Of a DNA stretch of 64,000 nucleotides, positions 6,917 through 9,000 are shown piece by piece (position 1 is the first letter of the stretch; every line of letters begins with the position of its first letter). Position numbers and translations under genes: made by a program. Below the pieces are notes generated by a model, which did not search any database, was not told the DNA's origin, and saw nothing but the letters and a program-made list of their open reading frames with translations. Source of the stretch: Halobaculum sp. MBLA0143 (GTDB lineage Archaea > Halobacteriota > Halobacteria > Halobacteriales > Haloferacaceae); NCBI RefSeq assembly GCF_041361465.1, contig NZ_JBGKAC010000001.1, positions 682,001 through 746,000 of the forward strand. Reading direction: 5' to 3'.

Positions 6917-7005
6917 CTAGAGTGTCGTCTCGCAGATTCCTGGCGCCGTCTAGATCATTTCTAGGCCGAAACAGAGGATATATCCCTGCCGGGGCTAGCG
7001 CCTAG
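6917..7005. promoter_or_regulatory. Cluster of five CTAG sites before the methyltransferase gene
   Basis: CTAG occurs at 6917, 6950, 6961, 6995 and 7002, five times in 89 bp, ending 5 bp before the ATG at 7010. By eye I count about 16 other CTAGs in the rest of the 64-kb window. The first four sites are spaced 33, 11 and 34 bp, close to whole helical turns. They flank the TATA element at about 6979-6984. The downstream enzyme belongs to the family that methylates CTAG in haloarchaea, so a self-sensing operator is inferred. Confidence 0.7.
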
Positions 7006-7009
7006 TCCG
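6971..7009 (+). promoter_or_regulatory. TATA promoter of the CTAG methyltransferase gene
   Basis: A TATATC element sits at about 6979-6984, with purines (ACAGAGGA) just before it as a BRE. It lies about 28 bp upstream of the ATG at 7010, the distance expected for a leaderless haloarchaeal transcript. CTAG sites lie at 6995 and 7002, between TATA and start, where bound protein or methylation could affect initiation. Confidence 0.6.
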
Positions 7010-8089
7010 ATGGGACCCGACCCCGCGTCCCGCGAGACCGCCCACCGGGTGTGCCTCGGCGACGCTCGACAGCTCCCCCTCCCGGACGACAGCGTCGAGC
7101 TCGTCGTCACCTCCCCGCCGTACCCGATGATCGAGCAGTGGGACGACCAGTTCGCGGCGATGGACGACGGCGTAGCGGCGGCGCTGTCGAACGGCGACGG
7201 CCAGACGGCGTTCGACCGGATGCACGCGGTGTTGCGCGAGGCGTGGGCCGAACTCGCTCGCGTCGTCGTCGACGGCGGTGTCGTCTGTGTCAACGTCGGC
7301 GACGCAACCCGGACGGTCGCGGGTGAGTTCCGACTGTACCCCAACCACGCTCGGATCACCGAACAGCTCACGAACCTGGGGTTCCGCCAGCTCCCGGGCG
7401 TGTTGTGGCGCAAGCCGACGAACGCGCCGACGAAGTTCATGGGTTCGGGAACGCTTCCGCCGAACGCCTACGTCACCCTAGAACACGAGCACGTCCTCGT
7501 GTTCCGTAACGGCTCTCGGCGCTCGTTCGAGGCTCGCGCGGACCGCCGCTACGAGGCGTCGTACTTCCACGAGGAACGCAACCGGTGGTTCTCCGACCTG
7601 TGGGACCTGAGCGGTGACTCCCAGGGCACGGCCGACGACACCCCGAGAGACCGCCGGGCGGCGTTTCCCACGGAGCTGCCGTACCGACTGATCTCGATGT
7701 ACTCCGTCTACGGCGACACCGTGTTGGACCCGTTCTGGGGCACCGGCACGACCACGTTCGCGGCGATGGCGGCCGCCCGTGACTCCGTCGGTGTCGAGTC
7801 CGTCCCCGGTCTCCCGGCGCAGTTCGACGACCGTGTCGACTCAGTTCGGTCGTGGTCCCAGGAGCGAGCCCAGCGCCGGCTGGCCGCCCACCGCGAGGCA
7901 GTCGCCGACCAAGAGGACACCTACGAGGCGACCAACTACGACTTCGAGGTGGTGTCGAACCAGGAGCGCCGCGTCCAACTGTACGCCGTCACGGCGACCG
8001 AGCGCCGTTCGGGCGGTTACTACGCCCACCACGACCCCGTCACCGACGACGGTGAGTCCACCGACGCAGTCACCGGCGACGGTGAGTGA
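7010..8089 (+). CDS. zim: Orphan DNA (cytosine-N4) methyltransferase, CTAG type
   Basis: A 359-aa class-beta amino-methyltransferase. The catalytic motif TSPPYP (residues 34-39) comes before the AdoMet-binding motif DPFWGTGTT (240-248), the order of beta-type N4-cytosine enzymes. SPPY rather than DPPY favours m4C. The central part (WRKPTNAPTKFMGSG, LEHEHVLVF) resembles the haloarchaeal Zim family, which methylates CTAG, from memory. No restriction endonuclease or specificity gene is adjacent, so it is an orphan enzyme with an epigenetic role. The C-terminal 25 residues are a low-complexity acidic tail. The coding region itself contains one CTAG at 7478. Target specificity is inferred. Confidence 0.75.
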   Translation: MGPDPASRETAHRVCLGDARQLPLPDDSVELVVTSPPYPMIEQWDDQFAAMDDGVAAALSNGDGQTAFDRMHAVLREAWAELARVVVDGGVVCVNVGDATRTVAGEFRLYPNHARITEQLTNLGFRQLPGVLWRKPTNAPTKFMGSGTLPPNAYVTLEHEHVLVFRNGSRRSFEARADRRYEASYFHEERNRWFSDLWDLSGDSQGTADDTPRDRRAAFPTELPYRLISMYSVYGDTVLDPFWGTGTTTFAAMAAARDSVGVESVPGLPAQFDDRVDSVRSWSQERAQRRLAAHREAVADQEDTYEATNYDFEVVSNQERRVQLYAVTATERRSGGYYAHHDPVTDDGESTDAVTGDGE

Positions 8090-8862: not shown

Positions 8863-8967
8863 CACTCTGGCTCGGGTCGTCAGCGCGGTTACACTCTGGC
8901 TCGGGTCGTCAGCGCGGTTACACTCTGGCTCGGGTCGTCAGCGCGGTTACACTCTGGCTCGGGTCGT
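8863..8967. repeat. 29-bp direct tandem repeat, three full copies plus an 18-bp part
   Basis: Identical 29-bp units begin at 8881, 8910 and 8939, preceded at 8863-8880 by the last 18 bp of the unit. There are no spacers. The array lies between the end of mfnA (9001) and the start of the VTT gene (8785), both on the minus strand, so it falls in the leader or promoter region of the VTT gene or in the mfnA 3' region. Copies look identical, which implies recent duplication. Confidence 0.92.
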
Positions 8968-9000
8968 CACACGACCGCTCGCGCCGGCGGCCGGGTGACG

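Follow-up and report, generated by a model that had tools for sequence, protein, structure and literature searches.

Clustered CTAG sites upstream of a zim-type methyltransferase gene in Halobaculum: a candidate self-targeted control region

A Halobaculum gene that looks to encode an orphan CTAG N4-cytosine methyltransferase of the zim type (positions 7010–8089, plus strand; 359 aa) is preceded by five CTAG sites within 89 bp, at positions 6917, 6950, 6961, 6995 and 7002, the last of them separated from the ATG (7010) by 4 bp. Positions refer to the window, by which we mean the whole stretch of DNA analysed: 64,000 nt of Halobaculum sp. MBLA0143 (GTDB lineage Archaea; Halobacteriota; Halobacteria; Halobacteriales; Haloferacaceae), assembly GCF_041361465.1, NZ_JBGKAC010000001.1:682,001–746,000, forward strand. 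Because the rare target of the enzyme lies in its own promoter, with two copies invariant in all four genus species compared, the arrangement suggests a methyltransferase that measures and limits its own amount. The reading we favour, with a probability of about 0.58, is that this promoter serves as a self-targeted control region, where methylated or occupied self-sites throttle zim transcription.

A recount placed the five sites exactly where the first-pass annotation had them, and its claim that CTAG is rare in this DNA and crowded in this promoter also held. The window contains 21 CTAG, whereas dinucleotide shuffles predict 66; of 319 promoters sampled, that of zim is the densest. Genome-wide rates were taken from a sample of 484 kb of the main chromosome, with genes taken from a simple gene caller. 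This sample contains 155 CTAG (0.32/kb), with densities of 0.17/kb for coding and 0.92/kb for intergenic DNA. Outside the zim promoter, no 100-bp stretch of it contains as many as three. Counts upstream of the sampled genes gave the same picture: among the 319 called promoters, 23 have at least one CTAG in the interval −100 to −1, four have at least two and only that of zim has at least three. At the intergenic rate, the Poisson probability of at least five CTAG per 100 bp is 5e-8, or ~1.5e-4 over 3000 promoters. CTAG triples with gaps of no more than 30 bp occur at five places besides the zim promoter in the 3.58-Mb genome, and of the 10-kb stretches surrounding these five, three have a GC content clearly below the chromosome mean. 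The first four zim promoter sites had also been proposed to lie along one face of the helix. At 10.5 bp per turn the five sites fall at angles of 0, 51, 69, 154 and 34 degrees, and we reject helical phasing for this reason; the 7 bp between the last two sites is the single CTAG spacing preserved in all four genus species examined.

These four species are this genome (G000), G173, G345 and G391. The TATA box (6979–6983, plus strand) forms the core of GGATATAT, and TATAT is located at −31 from the ATG in all four. Downstream of the box lies the invariant block GCTAGCGCCTAG (6994–7005), a candidate self-operator that contains CTAG sites 4 and 5 at −15 and −8. The 12 bp of this block, at −16 to −5, are identical in the four species compared, so that on sequence comparison the cluster is more than the noise of one species. 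The bases separating the block from the TATA box are mostly variable. The arrangement CTAGN3CTAG has two or three copies per genome, one of which lies at zim in each species. In a small comparison of G000 with G173, the interval −20 to −1 is identical at 16 of 20 positions for zim, against 2–10 of 20 in the six other intergenic gene starts compared; another pair (18/20) was set aside since its called start is apparently inside the gene. The more distal sites are conserved to different extents (no strand is assigned to any of the sites). Site 1 (6917–6920, −93) has a counterpart in three of the four species (−93, −94 and −93), with flanks that are not alignable. Site 2 (6950–6953, −60) is private to this species. 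Site 3 (6961–6964, −49) is embedded in a block, GATCATTTCTAGG, that is common to G345 and is not present in G391 or G173. We infer that transcription begins at or just before the ATG, giving a leaderless transcript. Given a TATA box at −31, the CTAG pair of the invariant block should sit between the box and the transcription start.

The methyltransferase contains a single Pfam domain, N6_N4_Mtase (1.7e-30), and its TSPPY and DPFWGTGTT motifs occur in beta order, with the TSPPY and DPF-GTG alignment columns invariant or nearly so. Sequence and fold searches match beta-class methyltransferases. The predicted model (mean pLDDT 82) comprises the methyltransferase domain with no N-terminal DNA-binding extension, and among solved folds it is closest to TTHA0409 and CcrM. 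The other three genus proteins are 74–82% identical to it, and 332 of the 391 genomes in the class encode homologues; no phage homologues were found at E 1e-20. RE_MjaI (PF09568), the nuclease family searched for, is absent from all four genus genomes, with a positive control in M. jannaschii, and the methyltransferase therefore looks orphan. The earlier assignment to the orphan CTAG methyltransferases of the zim family is supported by this absence, by 45% identity across 322 aa to the characterised CTAG enzyme M.MthZI and by membership of the same family as HVO_0794 (zim; cHG U). Strains without HVO_0794 lose CTAG methylation (PMC5867850; PMC6471742).

Beyond the genus, the cluster is not a general trait of orthologues, as the first-pass annotation would have had it. 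Our haloarchaeal survey covered 146 zim orthologues in 47 genera, with counts weighted by genus, and most of these genes have no upstream CTAG. When the genus itself is excluded, CTAG is present at −100 to −1 in 6.5 of 46 genera and at −36 to −20 in 4.06 of 46. Control promoters from sampled genomes carry CTAG at −100 to −1 in about 7–9% of cases, so there is no clear enrichment, and we dropped a universal rule of upstream CTAG for the family. Across the survey, the multi-site cluster is specific to the genus. The signal at −36 to −20 comes mainly from family f3 (g29, g39, g46, g65 and g69) plus g67, where the CTAG lies near −29, as in CAAGACTAGAGTC. CTAA and CTTA are likewise enriched at this position, and for this reason the CTAG there may be one ancestral TATA variant. 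Parsimony on a weak tree of N-terminal fragments gives 16 changes when any upstream CTAG is scored and eight when only CTAG at the TATA position is. One zim orthologue, at locus L019, has three CTAG upstream of its aligned start, evenly spaced by 57 bp at −234, −177 and −120.

In Asgard genomes, CTAG lies at −100 to −1 in 25 of 38 AT-rich loci, compared with 9 of 51 control promoters from the same loci (Fisher 6e-6 with relatedness ignored, the loci being phylogenetically non-independent). The CTAG-bearing loci belong nearly all to one class, and the site usually comes directly after a TATA-like run, as in AAAACTTTAATCTAG. The Asgard CTAG methyltransferase genes with CTAG usually directly behind a TATA-like box are those at L263–L285, L050, L052 and L039; at some Asgard loci CTAG flanks TATATAT on both sides, 33 bp apart.

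In the feedback mechanism that we propose for Halobaculum, plentiful enzyme would methylate or bind the promoter CTAG sites, and methylated or bound CTAG between the TATA box and the start codon would hinder formation or opening of the transcription complex. When the enzyme is short, for example after replication, the promoter sites would be under-methylated and zim transcription would rise, with the outcome that enzyme level would be matched to the number of CTAG sites in the genome. The partly conserved sites at −49 and −93 would act as accessories to the core pair at −15/−8. We infer that the promoter sites are methylated, that this affects transcription with a negative sign and that an autoregulatory switch exists; of the two signs, negative feedback is the more probable, and we consider a direct effect on transcription more probable than a separate repressor that reads CTAG.

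Feedback control is supported by the position of the cluster as the extreme of the chromosome sample, by the invariance of GCTAGCGCCTAG amid varying bases and by the distal CTAG at −93/−94 in three species of the genus. The promoter sites are also the enzyme's own target, judged from M.MthZI and the HVO_0794 family, and CTAG recurs at the f3 TATA position and beside Asgard TATA-like boxes. In Haloferax lucertense, the 75 bp upstream of starts are enriched in CTAG (PMC11001535). Against this reading, CTAG methylation in H. lucertense is common upstream of genes, yet uncorrelated with expression (PMC11001535), and H. volcanii lacking six methylation loci including HVO_0794 grew without defect (PMC5867850). 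The lack of upstream CTAG in most haloarchaeal orthologues, and in M.MthZI itself, also counts against it. A broader version is that archaeal orphan CTAG methyltransferases repeatedly evolved feedback by acquiring CTAG in the core promoter of their own gene, as a sensor of several sites in this genus, as one TATA-position site in f3 and as a TATA-adjacent site in an Asgard class; this is a tentative proposal that we regard as rather unlikely.

The known systems closest to this one each share part of its organization. HVO_0794 is of the same family by homology, is chromosomal, has no cognate nuclease found and acts in a genome where CTAG is rare, but most orthologues examined have no upstream CTAG, whereas this gene has five; a promoter cluster of self-sites is not described in the portions of the HVO_0794 literature consulted. 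M.MthZI, from plasmid pFZ1, has an identical motif order, but is encoded beside an MjaI-family nuclease and has no CTAG within its 200 bp upstream. Bacterial precedents for control by promoter methylation are CfrBI, LlaDII and AhdI (PMC12707154; PMC3874152), in which recognition sites of the methyltransferase likewise lie in its promoter. In autoregulation of the CfrBI/LlaDII type, recognition sites are found inside the enzyme's own promoter, as are the five CTAG here, two of them genus-invariant. Methylation sets methyltransferase transcription in those systems, whereas here such an effect is presumed. They are also bacterial and belong to restriction-modification, in contrast to an archaeal orphan enzyme with a TATA-box promoter and up to five sites. 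CcrM of Caulobacter, an orphan related to this enzyme by sequence and fold, has GANTC near its promoter and methylation-linked control of its own gene, but is a bacterial N6-adenine enzyme regulated by the cell cycle.

The alternative that survives best, to which we give a low but appreciable probability, is that GCTAGCGCCTAG serves an unrelated transcription factor as its operator, with the CTAG match either coincidental or making binding of that factor methylation-sensitive. Three of the species read GCTAGC-G-CCTAGG, two operator-like 6-bp palindromes, the second of which is CCTAGT in this genome. CTAG is known in repressor operators, as remarked in one report (PMC6471742), and a winged-helix gene of this genome also has CTAGN3CTAG, at −16/−9 of its start. 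However, it is the gene immediately downstream whose product targets CTAG, and the winged-helix cluster, the one other CTAG cluster tested for conservation, is missing from the orthologues of that gene. No shared CTAG-reading factor is therefore visible, and a winged-helix regulator of this kind was dropped as a candidate.

Somewhat less credible is a mostly neutral origin, under which intergenic DNA avoids CTAG less strictly and the block is kept merely as ordinary core-promoter or start-site sequence. This would fit the 5-fold higher density of CTAG in intergenic than in coding DNA, the restriction of the −60 and −49 sites to some genus species and the many orthologues that manage with no upstream CTAG. 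It accounts poorly for five sites that far exceed the intergenic rate, for a block more conserved than the adjoining bases and the six compared gene starts, and for a distal CTAG that recurs at −93/−94. That the enzyme is a classical repressor acting through a separate DNA-binding domain, for which M.SsoII and M.EcoRII are bacterial precedents (PMC3874152), is highly improbable, since Pfam yields N6_N4_Mtase only and no N-terminal helix-turn-helix domain of the M.SsoII type was found in the Pfam scan or as an extension in the predicted structure.

What CTAG methylation does, and what purpose is served by an orphan enzyme that most haloarchaea retain, has been described as an open question (PMC6471742). 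Under feedback control, a promoter composed of the methyltransferase's own sites would offer a concrete case, open to testing, of direct regulation by archaeal m4C, and the zim promoter would also serve as a natural reporter for a regulatory effect of m4C. Repeated feedback in core promoters, if true, would amount to epigenetic self-control acting directly on a TBP/TFB promoter.

Several further CTAG arrangements and one repeat were observed. The winged-helix-like gene mentioned above (L138:4535–4999; G000:C1:2834037–2834498, minus strand) adjoins V-type ATPase genes, occurs in each of the four genus species but hardly anywhere else in the family, and in this genome has seven CTAG in about 180 bp around its start. 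At L139:5024–5048, CTAGTGTGCTAGCACACTAG is a perfect, operator-like palindrome of three CTAG, located just upstream of a small AbrB-type antitoxin-like gene next to a PIN-like gene. In the window itself, positions 8863–8969 contain 3.7 copies of a 29-bp unit at 100% identity, between a VTT-domain gene and the next gene.
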